NCBI GenBank assembly: GCA_013298595.1
Contig: JAAFIG010000006.1
Coordinates: forward strand, 96,503 to 160,502
Origin: Deinococcales bacterium
GTDB lineage: Bacteria > Deinococcota > Deinococci > Deinococcales > JAAFIG01
Length of the DNA stretch: 64,000 nt
Direction of reading: 5' to 3'
Part shown: in pieces, positions 7,609 to 15,446 of the stretch
Layout: each line of letters starts with the position of its first letter
Numbering within the stretch: the stretch's first letter is position 1
Made by a program: the position numbers and the translations under genes
Notes under the pieces: model-generated
The model's input: the letters and a program-made list of their open reading frames with translations, nothing else
What the model was told of the DNA's origin: nothing
Databases searched by the model: none

Positions 7609-7746
7609 ATGAAATCTGAACCAAAATCCATACCTATGACACCAGTAAAAAAACCATTCCAAGGTATGAAACCTTTGGTTTTATCGCCACGTCCACAATT
7701 TACGGTCAATATTACGGCTGCTATTCGTAAGTTACGTGACCAATGA
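7609..7746 (+). CDS. Small putative antitoxin paired with PIN toxin
   Basis: This 45-residue reading frame ends in TGA overlapping the ATG of the PIN-domain gene as ATGA. It has several Pro and Lys residues near the N-terminus and ends in a short basic helix (AAIRKLRDQ). It is not similar enough to a known antitoxin family for me to name one. The position immediately upstream of, and coupled to, a PIN gene is the standard VapB-like arrangement. A TTGACA hexamer lies at 7574-7579. The 215 bases between the EF-G-like gene and this start hold nothing else that I recognise. Confidence 0.5.
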   Translation: MKSEPKSIPMTPVKKPFQGMKPLVLSPRPQFTVNITAAIRKLRDQ

Positions 7747-8261
7747 ATATTTCGCGGCATTACATCATTGACTCGAGTATTGCTTTATATGGTGCATTGC
7801 CAATTGAAATGTTTCCTGATCAAGAACAAAATAAGGTCAGAGCAGCCACCGCGTTTCTCAGTCGCGCTACTTTTCATGGTGCAGAATTACACGTTCCAGT
7901 CAGTTTCTTTTCAGAAATCATGAATTTGGTCTATCAAGAATTTATTCAAACCCAACAATTGAGTCTCGAGGAGGGTCAGTTGTTATTGGACATGATTTTT
8001 TCAACAACATGGGAATTTCACTTTCCTGTTTTCCGCACTGTTTTTGATATTCAGCATCGTTTAGCATCACGCCCAACTGTTACCGATGCCGAGTTTTTAT
8101 CGCTTGCAATGGATTTAGGTTATCCAATACTGACAACCGACCCTGAACTATTGTTAGAAGTCCAAAAAAACATTCCTGAAATAGCAACCCAACTTATCAC
8201 CGAGCATATTTGGGCAAGCAGCGGCGCACTCGAGGAATTTCCACCAACAGATGAAGGATGA
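7743..8261 (+). CDS. PIN-domain protein, putative VapC-like toxin
   Basis: This 172-residue protein has the spaced acidic residues of a PIN nuclease. Asp10 is in IIDSS, a Glu in FFSEIMNLVY lies near residue 58, an Asp in VTDAEFLSLA near residue 117, and a second Asp in LTTDPELL near residue 132. These ligate Mg/Mn in the active site of RNA-cleaving VapC toxins. The four-base overlap with the 45-residue protein before it supports a toxin-antitoxin pair. It is longer than typical VapC (about 130 residues), with a C-terminal extension. It contains three CTCGAG sites, so it seems adapted to this genome. It ends one base before the stop of the converging next gene. Confidence 0.72.
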   Translation: MNISRHYIIDSSIALYGALPIEMFPDQEQNKVRAATAFLSRATFHGAELHVPVSFFSEIMNLVYQEFIQTQQLSLEEGQLLLDMIFSTTWEFHFPVFRTVFDIQHRLASRPTVTDAEFLSLAMDLGYPILTTDPELLLEVQKNIPEIATQLITEHIWASSGALEEFPPTDEG

Positions 8262-8262
8262 G

Positions 8263-9165
8263 CTAAAACTCGTAAACTTCGGGTTTGAAACCCAATTGAT
8301 TGATATAGGCTGTGTATTCATCTGGCTCGAGTGGACGATTCTTCCCAGCCAGTGCCACAAAAAAGGCTTCCATGACGTTATTACCAAAGTTTCGTCCATT
8401 GATTTTTGGTGTGGTTGCAATCAAGCGTTTTAAGCCAGCCGCTTTGAACGCTGCCATATCCGATTCGGTAATGGTTTGGGTCAGCACTGTTTTACCTGTT
8501 AATTTCTCAGGCATGTAACGTTTCACATAATGCGTATCGCCTGCGATTACTTCTGCCCAATCGTAATACTTGGTACGCCAATCTCGGATACTGGTTTCTT
8601 GTTTTTCGCCTGTTGGATAAAACCATTCAAACGGCAAATTCGTCACAATCGGCAAGACAATACTGGCAGTTCGCTCGAGTGCCGCTTCGGATTTAATTGG
8701 GATATCAAGACCAATACCATACACAACATCGCCAAAAACCATATCTGCGCCAGCTCGAGCCAGTGCTTGCGCCATACCAAAACGATCCACGGCACTGACC
8801 ATCAGTGTTTTACGACCCCGCCATTGCACCACAGACTCGAGTTCAGTTACTGCAATTCGCTCGAGGGTATGTTTTAAACCACCACCATCTACAATCGGTG
8901 TGATTTTGGCGTTACTGGCTAGTTTGATAATGTCCTTGAAGCTATATCGTTTATTACCAGCCACAATATGTAAATCGGTACCACCCAAACCAAAAGCTGC
9001 GACTTTGCCATCTAAATCGCGCAGCATTTGCGCTGCGCCGGCCATACTGCCATCAGTACCAATACGCTCGAGAATAAATTGTTGCCCTAGCACTTCGAGT
9101 TCGGCAGTGGCGTTGCGTTTGCTCGAGCCGAGTGAAACGCTAACAATTCGTTTAGGGGAAGTCAT
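8263..9165 (-). CDS. Conserved protein of the family labelled quinate 5-dehydrogenase
   Basis: This 300-residue cytoplasmic protein begins with VSVSLGSSKRN and contains ERIGTDG, FGLGGTDL and VDGGGLKHTLERIAV. The same architecture occurs in Deinococcus and some Firmicutes proteins that databases name 'quinate 5-dehydrogenase'. I see glycine-rich turns but not the clear N-terminal Rossmann GxGxxG or the shikimate-dehydrogenase Lys/Asp pair, so the name may be misleading. No quinate or shikimate gene is nearby. I treat it as a conserved protein of uncertain function. It is transcribed toward the PIN gene. Confidence 0.6.
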   Translation of the reverse strand: MTSPKRIVSVSLGSSKRNATAELEVLGQQFILERIGTDGSMAGAAQMLRDLDGKVAAFGLGGTDLHIVAGNKRYSFKDIIKLASNAKITPIVDGGGLKHTLERIAVTELESVVQWRGRKTLMVSAVDRFGMAQALARAGADMVFGDVVYGIGLDIPIKSEAALERTASIVLPIVTNLPFEWFYPTGEKQETSIRDWRTKYYDWAEVIAGDTHYVKRYMPEKLTGKTVLTQTITESDMAAFKAAGLKRLIATTPKINGRNFGNNVMEAFFVALAGKNRPLEPDEYTAYINQLGFKPEVYEF

Positions 9166-9277
9166 GGCAGCTGATTGTAACAGGAAAAAAAGGCAGAAAG
9201 CAGTTTTAACCAGAAAATACTAACCGATGAACGATACGATGTTTAGGAATTTAAGCGTTATTCACACAGGGAGGCAC

Positions 9278-12070
9278 ATGCTCATACAACAATTACTCAA
9301 AGAAGCTAAAAACCCCAACACCAGCCCAGAACGCCTTTCTCAGTTAGGACTACTCGAAATAGAAGTAGCTCGAGCAGTGGCAAAGAATATCAATACACCT
9401 TCTGAAACCCTAAAAACTCTTAGCTCGAGTAAAGATGATACGACCAGAAAATACGTGGCTGGCAATCCAAACACACCACTCGAGGTTTTTAGTAAGTTAG
9501 CAATGCAATTTCCCAAAGAAGTGCTGAATAACCCATTGCTACCAATTTTATTGATGTCCGATGCGAATTTTCTCGAGCAATTCCCAAGTGCCAGTTTGAA
9601 AAACATGCTTAAACGACCCGAGATGCCCGTAGAATTTATTGAATGGGCAGCGCAAAACGCAGATTGGAAAGTTTGTGAAGGAATTTTACAGAATGAAAAG
9701 GCGACTTTGAGTGCTTTGCACAGTCTCGAGCAACGTTTTTCAGATCAGGTAACAAAAATTCAAACACATCTAGCATTTTCAAACTCAATAGTTGCACCAG
9801 TTTGGACAACCCAAGCACTGATAGAGGATGTCTTAGCAAAACGTGCGACTTATTCTCTGCCTGATGGAAGATTACGTCAAATTGGTTGGTTTTCTCGAGA
9901 TGAAAACAGCAAAGCTATTTTACCTCTTTTAACCTATGCCAAGTGCGAAATTGCTAGTGATCCAAATACACCAATTGCTACATTACAAACTTTGGCTCGA
10001 GATATGTATGATGATGTACAAATTTGTGTGGCAAGTAACCCTAATACACCAATTGAGGTTTTGCAAGAATTAACTTTAGCAAGTGATACGGTACGGTTGA
10101 GTTTAGCAAAAAATCGTTCAGCACCTATTCAATTGTTACAAGTTCTAGCAAATGATTCCTCACCAGATGTTCGGCGTGCTGTCACGGAAAATCCGATTTC
10201 TCCAATCGAATTGCGAGCAAGTATTCTTGATGGTGTAGGTGTTAAAGACCATATTGAAAACTCGATTAAAACACTAATTGCTTTTGCCTTAAGTCCTTTT
10301 CTGCGTTCCAGATGGGTGGCAGCAGGTAATCCTAAAACACCAAGTGAGATTTTGCATTTATTAGCAACTGATACCAATTCTGATACGCGTAGGCTGGTTG
10401 CGAATAATAATGCTACTGCTCCTGACACACTAAAGCTGTTGGTTGCACCAAGCGAAGATAATCATATTCGGACTTGTGCTGTTACAAATCCGAATATACC
10501 AATTGAAATTTTGCAACAAATGATTCGTGAACAAAGTTTTGCTTTAGACGTTGCTTACCATTCCGACATTCCAATTAGTATTTTGCAAGTATTAGCAACA
10601 AATACCGATGCTCGTGTTCGTACAAATGTGGCTAAGAACCCTAGTACCTCAGTAGAAACGCTTTGTTTCATGTATGAAAAAGAATCTGATTTAGGGGTAA
10701 TTGGCACTATTGCATTAAATCCAAATACGCCAATCGAAATACTCGAGAAAATCTTTGTCAATCATGTAAATCTTCATCCAGAACTCGCGCAAAATCCAAG
10801 TGCGTCAAGTGAACTGCTTATCAAGTTGGCACAAGGCAAGGGTTTACATATTCGTAATCTGGTCAGCTTGCATCCTGCTACACCAGCTGAAGTTTTATTT
10901 CATATTGTCAGTAGAACAAATTCTATTGGTCGGGCATATATTGCACAAAATCCAAAGGCACCTATCCAATTGCTGTCTCAATTAGCTGAAGATGAATCTT
11001 ATGGTGTTCGAGCAGCAGTGGCACAAAATCCTAACACAACCACCCAATCGCTATCGCAACTTGCAGAAGACGAACACGAAAAAGTACGACAATACGTTGC
11101 TAAAAACATGCTCACTCCAATCTCTACTTTAGAAAAATTAGCAACTGATAGCATCGTAGAAATTCGTCAAGCAGTTGCTAAAAACCCTAGCACTCCAACT
11201 GCTTTATTAGCTATTTTAGCCCAAGATGCCAAAGTTGAAGTCCGTTGGTATGTTGCAATTCATACCAATACAGCTATTGAAACACTGCAATTACTGGCTC
11301 GAGATAAAGTAGCGATAAGTTCATGGATTGTAAAACACCCCAAAGCTCCTATTGAAGCCCTGATACAAGTTGACAGTTCCACTCGAGTACCACTCGAGAC
11401 ATTACAGCAATTAGCTTTGGAGAAAAGCAAGTGGATTCGGGCTGGTGTAGCTAAAAACGTTCACACTCCAATGGCATTATTGCAACAATTGCTAACGGAT
11501 AAAGATGCTGATGTTCGACTCGAGATTGCCCTGAATCGCAATTCACCTTTAGAAATCCTGAGCACACTAGCAAAAGATACGAATTGGGAAATCCGTGTCG
11601 GTGTTGCTGGAAACGAGAATGCCAGTTCAGACTTGCTCATGCTAATGGCATCAGACGAAAATCTAAAAGTTCGACTCGAAGTTGCAAAAAACACGCAAAC
11701 GCCTTTTGTTGCATTGCAAATACTCGCAATAGATAAGGATTCCAAAATTCAAGAAACAGCATTACAAAATTATGCGTTATCTCGAGAACAACGTTCGCAG
11801 TTACTCCACAACGCAAACTTGGATTTTGCAGTCGAACTCGAGAAATTGCTTGGTTCAATCAGTAAATCCGAGGAAGGGTTAGTGGCTTATTTGCATCCAC
11901 AAGCACCAACTCCCATATTGGCGAAAGCAGGACGACATGATGACCCACTGATTCGGGCAGCTGTTGCACTACACCCAAAAACACCAGAGAACACCTTGAA
12001 AGTGCTCTGCCAAGACGGCGATGCTCGAGTTCGCGCCACTGCTCTGGCTCGAATGAAAGACACACCATGA
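9278..12070 (+). CDS. Giant leucine-rich-repeat-variant (LRV) protein
   Basis: Of 930 residues, nearly all is a tandem array of about thirty units of roughly 24 residues. The consensus is NPNTPIEVLQ-LA-D----VR--VA. This is the LRV helical repeat first seen in Azotobacter, related in shape to HEAT/ARM solenoids and likely a protein-binding superhelix. The N-terminal Fe-S cluster of the Azotobacter protein is not seen. I chose ATG 9278 because GGGAGG lies just before it; an in-frame ATG at 9227 has no ribosome-binding site. The stop overlaps the AAA ATPase start (ATGA). I infer a scaffold or substrate-recognition subunit for the AAA/VWA pair that follows. Confidence 0.88.
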   Translation: MLIQQLLKEAKNPNTSPERLSQLGLLEIEVARAVAKNINTPSETLKTLSSSKDDTTRKYVAGNPNTPLEVFSKLAMQFPKEVLNNPLLPILLMSDANFLEQFPSASLKNMLKRPEMPVEFIEWAAQNADWKVCEGILQNEKATLSALHSLEQRFSDQVTKIQTHLAFSNSIVAPVWTTQALIEDVLAKRATYSLPDGRLRQIGWFSRDENSKAILPLLTYAKCEIASDPNTPIATLQTLARDMYDDVQICVASNPNTPIEVLQELTLASDTVRLSLAKNRSAPIQLLQVLANDSSPDVRRAVTENPISPIELRASILDGVGVKDHIENSIKTLIAFALSPFLRSRWVAAGNPKTPSEILHLLATDTNSDTRRLVANNNATAPDTLKLLVAPSEDNHIRTCAVTNPNIPIEILQQMIREQSFALDVAYHSDIPISILQVLATNTDARVRTNVAKNPSTSVETLCFMYEKESDLGVIGTIALNPNTPIEILEKIFVNHVNLHPELAQNPSASSELLIKLAQGKGLHIRNLVSLHPATPAEVLFHIVSRTNSIGRAYIAQNPKAPIQLLSQLAEDESYGVRAAVAQNPNTTTQSLSQLAEDEHEKVRQYVAKNMLTPISTLEKLATDSIVEIRQAVAKNPSTPTALLAILAQDAKVEVRWYVAIHTNTAIETLQLLARDKVAISSWIVKHPKAPIEALIQVDSSTRVPLETLQQLALEKSKWIRAGVAKNVHTPMALLQQLLTDKDADVRLEIALNRNSPLEILSTLAKDTNWEIRVGVAGNENASSDLLMLMASDENLKVRLEVAKNTQTPFVALQILAIDKDSKIQETALQNYALSREQRSQLLHNANLDFAVELEKLLGSISKSEEGLVAYLHPQAPTPILAKAGRHDDPLIRAAVALHPKTPENTLKVLCQDGDARVRATALARMKDTP

Positions 12071-13065
12071 CCCCATCAGAACTCAAATCCACTTTGGATC
12101 GTTTTGTGATGGCTTCTTTGCGTCATTCGATTATGATTTGGGGTGCACCTGGCATTGGCAAAAGCAGTATTGTTGCCCAAGTTGCTCAAACTCACAACCT
12201 CGAGTTTACGGATTTACGCCTCTCACAACTTGCGCCGACTGATTTGCGTGGGTTGCCTGTGCCTGAAAATGGAGTCTCGAGGTGGTTTCCGCCAATTTTT
12301 TTGCCTCGAGCAGGACGTGGAATTCTTTTTTTGGATGAGTTGAACATGGCTCCTCCTGCTTTGCAAGGCGTTGCTCAACAACTGATTTTGGATCGTAAGG
12401 TCGGGGAGTACATCGTGCCTGAAGGCTGGTTTATCTGGGCGGCTGGCAATCGCAAAGAAGACCGTGCCAGTGTTTTTGATATGCCCGCGCCGTTGGCGAA
12501 TCGTTTTGTGCATTTTGAAGTTGAACCTGATTTTGATGCGTTTAAGTTCTACGCTTTTGAACGCGGTATCCACGAGCAGATTCTTGGTTTTTTGTCGTTT
12601 CGCCCGACCCTTTTGCATCGCATGGATGATGACCGTCCCGCTTGGGCAAGTCCGCGTTCGTGGGAGATTGCCAGCAGTTTGCACAGCACAGGCTTGGAGA
12701 TTGGTTCAGCCGTTGGCGCTCCTGCGGCTGCTGAGTTTTACGCTTTTCTCGAGGTTTACGCGGTACTGCCAAGCATCGAGCCGATTCTAGCGGGCAGCAG
12801 CACCGCCAATTTTCCGACTGAACCGAGCGCTCAGTTTGCGATTACCACCGCCCTTGCGACTCGAGCCAAAACCGCTAAAGAGGCTGTGGCAGCCTTTCGT
12901 TGGGTGGCAAGGGGAGCGCCGAGGGATTGGTTGGCGCTGATGGCGAATGATTTGCGGGTGCAAATGCAATCCAAAGGACAAGTTGGTGCATTCGCACAAT
13001 TGCTGATGCAGGACAAAGAATTACGTGAGGCGACTCAGGCGTTTCAGGCGCTTTTAAACCTATGA
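12067..13065 (+). CDS. MoxR-type AAA+ ATPase
   Basis: This 332-residue single-module AAA+ protein has Walker A GAPGIGKS at residues 26-33, Walker B ILFLDE ending at Asp90-Glu91, sensor-1 Asn128 in AAGN, and an Arg-finger-like Arg146 in PLANRF. MoxR ATPases act as remodelling chaperones, usually together with VWA proteins that load metals or assemble complexes. It overlaps the LRV gene before and the VWA gene after by four bases each, so all three are translated as one unit. Similar AAA proteins paired with DUF2201/VWA proteins exist elsewhere, but their substrate is unknown. Confidence 0.88.
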   Translation: MTPSELKSTLDRFVMASLRHSIMIWGAPGIGKSSIVAQVAQTHNLEFTDLRLSQLAPTDLRGLPVPENGVSRWFPPIFLPRAGRGILFLDELNMAPPALQGVAQQLILDRKVGEYIVPEGWFIWAAGNRKEDRASVFDMPAPLANRFVHFEVEPDFDAFKFYAFERGIHEQILGFLSFRPTLLHRMDDDRPAWASPRSWEIASSLHSTGLEIGSAVGAPAAAEFYAFLEVYAVLPSIEPILAGSSTANFPTEPSAQFAITTALATRAKTAKEAVAAFRWVARGAPRDWLALMANDLRVQMQSKGQVGAFAQLLMQDKELREATQAFQALLNL

Positions 13066-14279
13066 ACCTCGAGCCAGATGATGCTAAACGCCTCAGTGCG
13101 AGTTTGTTTCGCCTGACCAGTGCTGCGCCGTTTTTTGCTGCTTTAGCACGGTACGCTCGGCTTGAGAGCAGTTTGGAAATTCCCACGGCTGCGACAGATG
13201 GTATCAGTATTTTTTGGAATCCAGATTTTCTGCGTTCACTTTCTAAACTCGAGCGTGATGCTGTTTTGCTGCATGAGGTACTGCATTGTGCTTTGTCGCA
13301 CATCACCCGCCGAGGTATGCGCGAAGCTAGACTCTGGAACATTGCTTGCGATATTGTGGTCAATGGCATGATTGCTGCAGAAGGTAAGTTTACCTTGCCC
13401 AAAGGTCATATCCGATTGCCTGATCTCGAGCATTTGGCAGTTGAAGAAGTTTATGCATTATTAGAAAAGCAAATACCGATACTTGAGTTGCCAATGCTAG
13501 ATTTGCTCGAGATTGCTCCAAGCGATTGCCAAGGCGATAAGTCTGGTGATAGCAAGGGCGAAAAAGACCGTGATGAACAGGGCAACAATGACTCAGAAGG
13601 CAACCCAGATGGCAAAAGCAAAAAAGCCCCGATGGGTTTGACTCCAGCTCAAAAAACTCGTCTCGAGCAGCATTGGCACGACGCAATGCGTCGTGCCGAA
13701 ATGACTTGCCGTAACCAAGGGACAATGCCACTCGGGATGCAGCGTGAATTGGCTCGGCTGGGGCGTTCACAACTGAATTGGCAGGCTTTGCTGGCGAGGT
13801 TCTTGATTCGCACCCCAACGGATTTCTTGGGTTTTGATCGGCGTTTCCTGCACCAAAAATTGTATCTCGAGGCACTTGAAGGCGAAAGTGTCCAGACGTA
13901 TGTTTGCATAGACACAAGCGGTTCAATTAGCAATAAAGAAATGAATCTGCTGTTTACCGAAGTCCAAGCTGTACTACGGGCGTACCCGCAAGTCAAATGC
14001 GAATTATTTTTTGCTGATGCAGATTTATATGGCGGGTTTAAAATTCAAGCTCGAGATAAAATGCCAATGCCTCAAGGTGGTGGTGGTACCGATTTCAGAC
14101 CTTTTTTTACTCAACTCGAGCAGCAGCGTTTGCAGTTGGAAGCGGTTGCCATTTACTTAACCGATGGTTTTGGCTCATTTCCACAAAAAAAGCCGCGTTT
14201 GCCTGTGCTATGGGTGGTAGTACCTGGTGGTCTCGAGTCTAGTGCTTTTCCGTTTGGTACAGTCATTCGGATGGTATAA
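13062..14279 (+). CDS. VWA-like protein with zinc-metallopeptidase motif (DUF2201 type)
   Basis: This 405-residue protein has two parts. The N-terminal half carries HEVLH at residues 71-75, followed by ACDIVVN near residue 98. This is the zinc-binding arrangement of the DUF2201 putative metallopeptidase domain. A polar, low-complexity Gly/Asp/Lys linker spans about 155-190. The C-terminal half is a von Willebrand A-like domain with the complete metal-ion site: DTSGS at 284-288, Thr343 in GGGGTDF and Asp368 in LTDG. It has no signal peptide, so the system is cytoplasmic. It closes the LRV-AAA-VWA operon and probably partners the ATPase. Confidence 0.85.
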   Translation: MNLEPDDAKRLSASLFRLTSAAPFFAALARYARLESSLEIPTAATDGISIFWNPDFLRSLSKLERDAVLLHEVLHCALSHITRRGMREARLWNIACDIVVNGMIAAEGKFTLPKGHIRLPDLEHLAVEEVYALLEKQIPILELPMLDLLEIAPSDCQGDKSGDSKGEKDRDEQGNNDSEGNPDGKSKKAPMGLTPAQKTRLEQHWHDAMRRAEMTCRNQGTMPLGMQRELARLGRSQLNWQALLARFLIRTPTDFLGFDRRFLHQKLYLEALEGESVQTYVCIDTSGSISNKEMNLLFTEVQAVLRAYPQVKCELFFADADLYGGFKIQARDKMPMPQGGGGTDFRPFFTQLEQQRLQLEAVAIYLTDGFGSFPQKKPRLPVLWVVVPGGLESSAFPFGTVIRMV

Positions 14280-14321: not shown

Positions 14322-15446
14322 TTATGCAATCCGAAAATTTTCTTTTTCAGTGTGTGCATTTGCAGCAGTCGAACCTCGAGTTAACATCAACTTGAACTCG
14401 TGTGGACTGGTGGCTGTGGACAGGGCTTCCTCGTAAGAAATCAGCCCACCATTGTATAAATCGACTAAATGCTGGTCAAAGGTTCGCATACCACGCATAT
14501 TATCCTCGAGCATGGCATCTTTAATGAGTGGGGTTTTGGTTTCATCTTTGATGTAATCGCGGATCAGTGGGGTGTTAATCATCACCTCGAGCGCTAATAC
14601 CCGCCCTGAGCCATCTGCTCGAGGCAGTAAACGCTGTGACAGCACACCGACGAGGGATTCGGCAAAGAGAATACGAATTTGGTCGCGTTCGTGTGGTGGG
14701 AAGAAGTCAATGATACGGTTGACGGTACGGACAGCATCTTGGGTGTGTAAGGTGCTGAGCACCAAGTGACCTGTTTGAGCGGCAGTAATGGCAGCTTCGA
14801 CGGTTTCTTTGTCACGCATTTCGCCAATCATAATGACATCGGGGTCTTGACGCATGGCGTACTTGAGAGCGCTTTTGAAATCGGAGGTATCCGAACCAAC
14901 TTCGCGTTGCACAACTAGGCTGCGTTGGTTGCGATGCAGGTATTCGATTGGGTCTTCGATGGTGATGATGTTATGGGCGTAAGTACGGTTGATTTGGTCT
15001 ATGAGGGCTGCCATGGTGGTGCTTTTGCCTGAACCTGTTGGACCTGTGGTGAGAATAATACCGCGTTCTTTACCACAGAAATCTTCCATTAAATTTCCAG
15101 GTAAACCCAGTGATTCAAAACTGGCAATCGCATCTGGAATAACACGCATAACCAAACCAATACTGCCGCGCTGACGGAAAATGTTGCAACGGAAACGTGC
15201 CACATTTGGTACAAGATACGCAAAATCGAGTTCGTGACGATACTCAAATTCTTCCCATTGCTCGGCTGTTAAGAGGGTACGTCCAATAATTTTGGTTTGA
15301 TCTGGTTTTAGGGCTTCAGTGTGAAATGCAATCAATGTGCCATGCACCCGACCCATTGGTGGTGAACCGACTTGCAAATGCACGTCTGAAACGCCTCGTG
15401 CTACCATCGTCCGCAGCAAATCTACAATTGTTAAGGTTTGCGCCAT
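14322..15446 (-). CDS. pilT: Type IV pilus retraction ATPase PilT
   Basis: This 374-residue hexameric motor ATPase depolymerises type IV pili, driving twitching motility and DNA uptake. The Walker A GPTGSGKST is at residues 135-143. It is followed by the Asp box (ITIEDPIEYLH), the Walker B VIMIGEMRD and the His box (TGHLVLSTLHTQDA). No other pilus gene is in the window. The minus-strand neighbours DUF4388, mutY and purU share its direction. The start is preceded by a GGAGAC ribosome-binding site. A PilT in a Deinococcota-like genome fits natural competence, which may matter for the repeated CTCGAG motif. Confidence 0.95.
   Translation of the reverse strand: MAQTLTIVDLLRTMVARGVSDVHLQVGSPPMGRVHGTLIAFHTEALKPDQTKIIGRTLLTAEQWEEFEYRHELDFAYLVPNVARFRCNIFRQRGSIGLVMRVIPDAIASFESLGLPGNLMEDFCGKERGIILTTGPTGSGKSTTMAALIDQINRTYAHNIITIEDPIEYLHRNQRSLVVQREVGSDTSDFKSALKYAMRQDPDVIMIGEMRDKETVEAAITAAQTGHLVLSTLHTQDAVRTVNRIIDFFPPHERDQIRILFAESLVGVLSQRLLPRADGSGRVLALEVMINTPLIRDYIKDETKTPLIKDAMLEDNMRGMRTFDQHLVDLYNGGLISYEEALSTATSPHEFKLMLTRGSTAANAHTEKENFRIA

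Follow-up and report, generated by a model that had tools for sequence, protein, structure and literature searches.

In a 64,000-nucleotide stretch of a Deinococcales bacterium (GCA_013298595.1, contig JAAFIG010000006.1, positions 96,503 to 160,502; hereafter the window), three overlapping genes encode a long solenoid of LRV repeats, a MoxR-type AAA+ ATPase and a DUF2201 protein, in which a zincin-like N-terminal domain with an HExxH motif is joined to a C-terminal VWA domain (Table 1). We lean towards reading this trio as an ATP-driven MoxR/VWA remodelling machine of the NorQD or Midasin kind, in which a dedicated and replaceable solenoid would act as the target-recognising subunit. This reading draws on the gene content, motifs and tight coupling of the trio, on its recurrence in other genomes, on the different solenoid found in a sister lineage, on repeated losses of the glutamate of the zinc motif alongside an essentially invariant metal ion-dependent adhesion site (MIDAS) in the VWA domain, and on the fast evolution of the LRV protein.

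Recurrence of the three-gene unit

The genes of the window run in the order LRV-AAA-VWA and are joined at both junctions by four-base ATGA overlaps, just as a preliminary description of this DNA had placed them; the same description had proposed to look for the trio in other genomes, where we found it repeatedly. In a census of 111 genomes of the phylum Deinococcota, the VWA clade (E <1e-150) was present in 18 and an LRV protein with the N-terminal cap block of the trio family (E <=1e-37) in 15, all of them within the 18 (Fisher 6e-16, shared ancestry not corrected for). Within the phylum, full-length matches to the cap block were restricted to genomes having the AAA/VWA pair. Three of the 15 (G064, G068, G075), whose genes are divided over contig ends, are consistent with adjacency only, and runs of N leave the gene order of G063 uncertain. 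Among the remaining three of the 18, G025 has a 320-residue neighbour above the Pfam LRV cut-off, which overlaps the AAA gene, G073 a remnant of this short type of LRV protein, and G023 a 415-residue neighbour with an LRV_2 match below the cut-off only. An LRV gene also adjoins a more distant pair in G061 (L111).

Tight spacing is found in all three gene orders, LRV-AAA-VWA in the window, AAA-LRV-VWA in most relatives and AAA-VWA-LRV on a Woeseiaceae contig (L039), and this recurrence rules out a chance neighbourhood. The genome of the window holds a second complete trio on another contig (C6:66335-71039, corresponding to L043:8336-13040) in the order AAA-LRV-VWA. This C6 trio is the vertical copy of the genus, its AAA protein being 87% identical to that of the congener G001. 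The window trio, about equidistant from all others, is not the vertical copy but the divergent one. The same genome also carries seven LRV genes (172-364 amino acids) on one strand within 16 kb, with no AAA or VWA neighbours (C3:1-20000, L061).

In a sample of 369 gammaproteobacterial genomes, 102 encode a related VWA protein (E <1e-60) and none a capped LRV, a search to which the Woeseiaceae LRV, having no recognisable cap, is invisible. Together with the 15 of 15 capped-LRV genomes that hold the VWA clade, this rules out that the LRV gene is a random local repeat gene. In the gammaproteobacterial loci inspected the AAA gene adjoins the VWA gene, and an LRV or LRR partner was recognised in two of them only. 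The Woeseiaceae contig carries AAA-VWA-LRV with a four-base overlap; in G114 (L152:1302-6576) a gene for a 985-residue LRR protein (Pfam LRR_8 5.6e-99) precedes the AAA gene, the genes again overlapping by four bases. In the VWA tree the G114 protein is sister to that of the LRV-bearing Woeseiaceae (Shimodaira-Hasegawa-like approximate likelihood ratio test, SH-aLRT, 99), and the type of solenoid therefore differs between sister lineages while motor and VWA protein stay. Other arrangements of the pair were seen on the Cupriavidus plasmid pMTS2 (L068:2829-6053), where AAA and VWA are separated by a DUF3150 gene, another third partner, and beside an RmuC gene (L038 / L169) on a contig titled Klebsiella pneumoniae MAG (metagenome-assembled genome), which looks mislabelled.

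ATPase, metal sites and solenoid

In the ATPase, Walker A, Walker B, sensor 1, the NRF arginine and the SPRSW motif are all kept in 13 aligned relatives and the key residues are invariant, in agreement with the complete active site noted beforehand. As in MoxR-type ATPases, a VWA partner adjoins, here by the four-base overlap with the DUF2201 gene, and the pairing is kept in relatives. The best matches of the ATPase in the PDB, by sequence, are to Midasin.

Both domains of the DUF2201 protein (PF13203 and PF09967) exceed the curated cut-offs, with 124.7 against 23.2 and 63.5 against 26.4 bits, respectively. The zinc motif HEVLH spans residues 71-75 and the MIDAS motif DTSGS residues 284-288, so that the HExxH motif and the intact VWA metal site, including the numbering of Glu72 and Asp284, were read correctly from the outset. 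The structure model has a mean predicted local distance difference test (pLDDT) score of 82.5, with N-terminal residues 1-130 predicted at high confidence, and its VWA fold matches a VWA structure with Z 13.5 over 130 residues, the best Foldseek match being the MIDAS domain of Midasin. No zincin appeared in the fold-search lists, which mostly covered the VWA domain and are therefore not evidence of absence. Within residues 236-276, which sit N-terminal to the MIDAS like the finger of NorD and are poorly predicted in the model, Trp240 (97%), Leu244 (98%), Asp254 (88%) and Arg260 (90%) are conserved.

A residue census of 84 DUF2201 proteins, cellular apart from a few phage records, separated the two metal sites. 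His75 and His80 are present in 84/84 and His71 in 81/84, Glu72 in only 72/84, and the MIDAS residues are essentially invariant (Table 1). A VWA tree built without the respective columns requires at least eight changes of Glu72, which is replaced by Val in the LRV trio of Woeseiaceae and by Thr in the LRR trio, two sister members for which one common loss may account. Because Glu72 was lost repeatedly, also in both gammaproteobacterial solenoid-linked members, and the MIDAS was not, peptidase chemistry does not appear to be needed for the core function. Putative catalysis would probably be useful in phages and most Deinococcota, and dispensable for the function common to the family.

These counts bear directly on the option of a regulated protease, in which the LRV protein would select substrates, the AAA+ protein unfold and deliver them and the HExxH domain cut. 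The window and the Deinococcota trios retain His71, Glu72 and His75, the glutamate is kept in 79 of 80 readable viral-contig relatives, and the weak PDB matches of the N-domain profile are to M48-type metallopeptidases (3c37, E 0.015; BepA, 0.08). The losses described above, in solenoid-linked members and elsewhere, set against a MIDAS that is never lost, nevertheless make such a protease quite unlikely. The initial proposal of recogniser, motor and effector is thus supported in so far as the three genes form a real unit that includes an AAA+ motor, but not in making a peptidase effector the purpose of the system.

The LRV repeats exceed the Pfam cut-off with 195.9 bits, and the initial estimate of roughly thirty units was a fair one: 22 repeats are recognised by the hidden Markov model and about 33 helix pairs are seen in a low-confidence structure model (two input sequences, mean pLDDT 66), which was used for the helix count only. 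A variation in length, raised earlier as a possibility, was not observed, as the protein is near-constant with 843-931 residues (stop counted) across 13 trios; together with the lack of an LRV-length tandem repeat in the DNA of the window gene, this rules out a recent repeat expansion. The LRV protein is the least conserved subunit in 78/78 pairs of these trios, with a mean identity of 41% against 67% and 59% for the other two. Between close pairs, dN/dS (the ratio of nonsynonymous to synonymous substitution rates) was 0.20-0.38 for LRV, 0.16-0.23 for VWA, 0.04-0.12 for AAA and 0.10-0.18 for flanking genes. Evolution of the solenoid is therefore relaxed or mildly diversifying, yet still purifying, and strong positive selection was not seen, every value being below 0.4.

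Such a fast-evolving and replaceable solenoid is a poor fit to one fixed, conserved client, as it would be expected if the trio were a chaperone similar to NorQD or Mg-chelatase that inserts a metal cofactor into a single metalloenzyme and uses the LRV protein as a docking scaffold. The best-studied MoxR/VWA pair does insert iron, and the N-terminal domain retains its presumed metal ligands even where the glutamate is lost; no metalloenzyme gene, however, constantly neighbours the trio, and we consider this function very unlikely.

Table 1. Features of the trio and its sequence motifs, with positions in the window.
Feature	Position	Strand	Basis
GGAGG ribosome-binding site of LRV gene	9270-9274	+	sequence
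LRV solenoid protein, 930 aa	9278-12070	+	Pfam LRV 6.5e-60, LRV_2 3e-45; PDB 1lrv 1.1e-5
N-terminal cap block of trio LRV family	9278-9712	+	alignment; profile match 153 bits
ATGA overlap LRV/AAA	12067-12070	+	sequence
MoxR-type AAA+ ATPase, 332 aa	12067-13065	+	Pfam AAA_5 2.6e-7; alignment of relatives
Walker A GAPGIGKS	12142-12165	+	alignment, sequence
Walker B LFLDE	12325-12339	+	alignment, sequence
Sensor 1 Asn128	12448-12450	+	invariant in alignment
Candidate arginine finger Arg146	12502-12504	+	invariant in alignment
Candidate sensor 2 Arg197	12655-12657	+	invariant in alignment
ATGA overlap AAA/VWA	13062-13065	+	sequence
DUF2201 protein: zincin-like N-domain + VWA, 405 aa	13062-14279	+	DUF2201_N 6.9e-36, DUF2201 2.7e-17
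HEVLH zinc motif (His71, Glu72, His75)	13272-13286	+	counts in cellular relatives
Variable charged low-confidence linker, residues 149-190	13506-13631	+	pLDDT ~40-50; alignment
Conserved segment before first VWA strand, residues 236-276; candidate pore finger	13767-13889	+	role inferred
MIDAS DTSGS (Asp284, Ser286, Ser288)	13911-13925	+	84/84 cellular relatives
MIDAS Thr343 (GGGGTDF)	14088-14090	+	83/84, remaining one Ser
MIDAS Asp368 (TDG)	14163-14165	+	84/84

The proposed machine and its plasmid and phage relatives

In the proposed machine, the AAA+ protein, judged by its motifs, would form a MoxR-type ring. The DUF2201 protein would dock in this ring through its C-terminal VWA domain, possibly with segment 236-276 entering the pore as in NorD. 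The invariant MIDAS could hold a partner or client by an acidic residue, while the ring would pull on the linker between the VWA and the N-terminal domain. As a third dedicated subunit, the LRV protein would recognise the target and present it to the VWA side, and it would be exchangeable for another solenoid, as suggested by the LRR protein of one gammaproteobacterial lineage. Where Glu72 is retained, the zincin-like domain, which is expected to bind metal, may also cut the client, cleavage presumably not being the core activity.

Relatives on plasmids show further variants of the set. In Synechocystis sp. PCC 6803, plasmid pSYSA, which has been described as specialised in defence, encodes a MoxR protein (SGL_RS00750), a VWA protein (SGL_RS00745) and an LRV protein (SGL_RS00715) within about 9 kb in total. 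The latter, unnamed and 638 residues long, lies 4.2 kb from the AAA and VWA genes on the opposite strand and matches the cap with 92 bits (E 1.2e-29); the first impression that it is the partner of the adjoining DUF262 gene is called in question by this cap. On Thermus oshimai pTHEOS01 (L064:6988-15091) and at locus L050:3060-11058, genes for a short LRV, AAA and VWA protein are followed by those for a protein of the 742-residue type, which had no Pfam or PDB match, and a UvrD-type helicase. In pTHEOS01 and G025 the frames of this operon overlap; it is a candidate DNA-processing or defence system. Matches of the helicase to GajB in PADLOC most likely represent a generic UvrD signal.

These locations, pSYSA as well as pTHEOS01 with its helicase operon, also speak for an immune or stress switch of the VMAP type, in which the LRV protein would be a client or effector held in check by the AAA and VWA proteins and switched on by a trigger; a conflict role has indeed been proposed for MoxR-VWA pairs joined by a variable third protein (PMC7159879). 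However, the trio occupies the same conserved position on the chromosome in five genomes of one genus, with ilvA and further ordinary genes as neighbours; some of these syntenic copies have what looks like a DNA methyltransferase gene a few kb off. In addition, Pfam recognised no toxic domain in the LRV protein, and a PADLOC-DB 2.0.0 scan of the trio proteins gave no useful defence-family match, with generic P-loop matches only (E 0.004 or worse). We therefore regard the switch as unlikely for the trio as a whole: immunity, one of the functions suggested initially, finds no support in the window or the syntenic chromosomal copies and is possible for the plasmid branches.

Several observations also weigh against a remodelling machine with a recognising solenoid. 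Fast divergence is general among solenoids, and the rate of the LRV protein alone is thus no proof of recognition. Glu72 is kept in most trio members, so that cleavage may matter there, and the replacement by an LRR protein was seen in a single lineage. The query that also matches pSYSA finds capped LRVs on Calothrix plasmids and on Synechocystis PCC 6714 pSYLA, the VWA gene being absent from the same record; since the pSYSA LRV gene, moreover, stands apart on the other strand, the link between LRV and pair looks looser in cyanobacteria. Finally, the pair occurs without a solenoid in many gammaproteobacteria and in phages, where AAA and VWA were both found in 72 of 80 viral-contig loci and LRV in none. 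It consequently works without a solenoid, which would then be an add-on.

For the phage pair, a role in virion assembly has been proposed (PMC7824862). Phage DUF2201 metallopeptidase-VWA proteins are labelled “HNH endonuclease” in PHROG 1314, NC_023719.1 and NC_019516.2, a name which looks wrong, as the family matches the window VWA protein nearly over its full length (4.4e-74). The residue census likewise argues against the views that a DUF2201 protein is necessarily a peptidase or that it is an “HNH endonuclease”, the name given in many phage records.

Beyond the trio itself, a family of MoxR/VWA machines might, as a tentative and rather doubtful generalisation, share one motor and MIDAS protein and be aimed at different targets by swapped solenoids, an LRV protein for Deinococcota, the cyanobacteria and Woeseiaceae and an LRR protein for the sister lineage, with the plasmid branches engaged in conflict with mobile DNA. 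Client choice is poorly known for most MoxR/VWA subfamilies, and a replaceable solenoid subunit would offer a genetic handle on it. In this context, the pSYSA copy makes the idea of a solenoid adaptor testable, as Synechocystis 6803 is a model organism that can be transformed.

Locus borders and comparison with known systems

The open frame of the LRV gene extends upstream to 9227. We prefer a start at 9278, because a GGAGG site lies just 5' of it (3 bp before) and because it agrees with the N-termini of relatives. To the left, the trio is bordered by a divergent gene on the minus strand (8263-9165; 300 aa, no Pfam match), preceded by a PIN-like protein gene (7743-8261, weak match), and to the right by a convergent gene on the minus strand (14322-15446), which we take to be PilT-like. 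Promoter and terminator patterns around the trio did not exceed those of shuffled sequence, and an NCBIfam scan of the three proteins gave no match above the cut-off.

The AAA/VWA pair is already known from jumbo phages (PMC7824862), where the neighbour of a MoxR AAA+ gene likewise encodes a vWA protein that starts with a metallopeptidase domain, and phage relatives match the window VWA protein over most of its length. The difference lies in the solenoid gene, which is coupled to the pair here and absent from the 80 viral-contig loci. The open-licence literature searched contained no described function for the trio, as the preliminary description had supposed, no characterised LRV-bearing AAA/VWA pair, which that description had named as refuting its reading, and no text linking LRV with MoxR, a description elsewhere being possible.

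The LRV protein belongs to the same repeat family as that of Azotobacter vinelandii (1LRV, E 1.1e-5). The Azotobacter protein carries an N-terminal iron-sulfur domain and has 244 residues; the trio protein, in contrast, is 930 residues long and its six cysteines are scattered, without a cluster of the Azotobacter type. The ternary vWA-MoxR conflict systems with VMAP, iSTAND, FtsH or beta-propeller components share with the trio the clustering of MoxR, vWA and a third component (PMC7159879). In the trio, however, Pfam assigns this component to LRV or LRR, and the vWA partner carries DUF2201_N. Furthermore, VMAP-type AAA proteins have an N-terminal region with two aromatic motifs (PMC7159879), whereas only 25 residues precede Walker A in the ATPase of the trio.

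Similar in architecture are the ring-plus-MIDAS remodellers. Midasin (Rea1/Mdn1) is the best PDB match of the AAA protein by sequence and of the VWA domain by fold; it differs in being a single giant eukaryotic polypeptide with neither LRV repeats nor an HExxH domain. NorQ/NorD and CbbQ/CbbO combine, like the trio, a ring ATPase with a protein composed of N-terminal domain, linker and C-terminal VWA domain with a MIDAS (PMC9976466, PMC13036017), although NorQ and the trio ATPase are of low sequence similarity and NorQ is absent among the PDB matches listed. In NorQD, the VWA domain sits on the ring with its finger in the pore, and rotation of the finger by the ring extends the linker that leads to the N-terminal domain, while the MIDAS presumably holds the target; the finger (residues 403-448) precedes the MIDAS residues Thr534 and Asp562 in sequence (PMC9976466, PMC13036017). 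What sets the trio apart from NorQ/NorD is its zincin-like N-terminal domain and the solenoid as third subunit.

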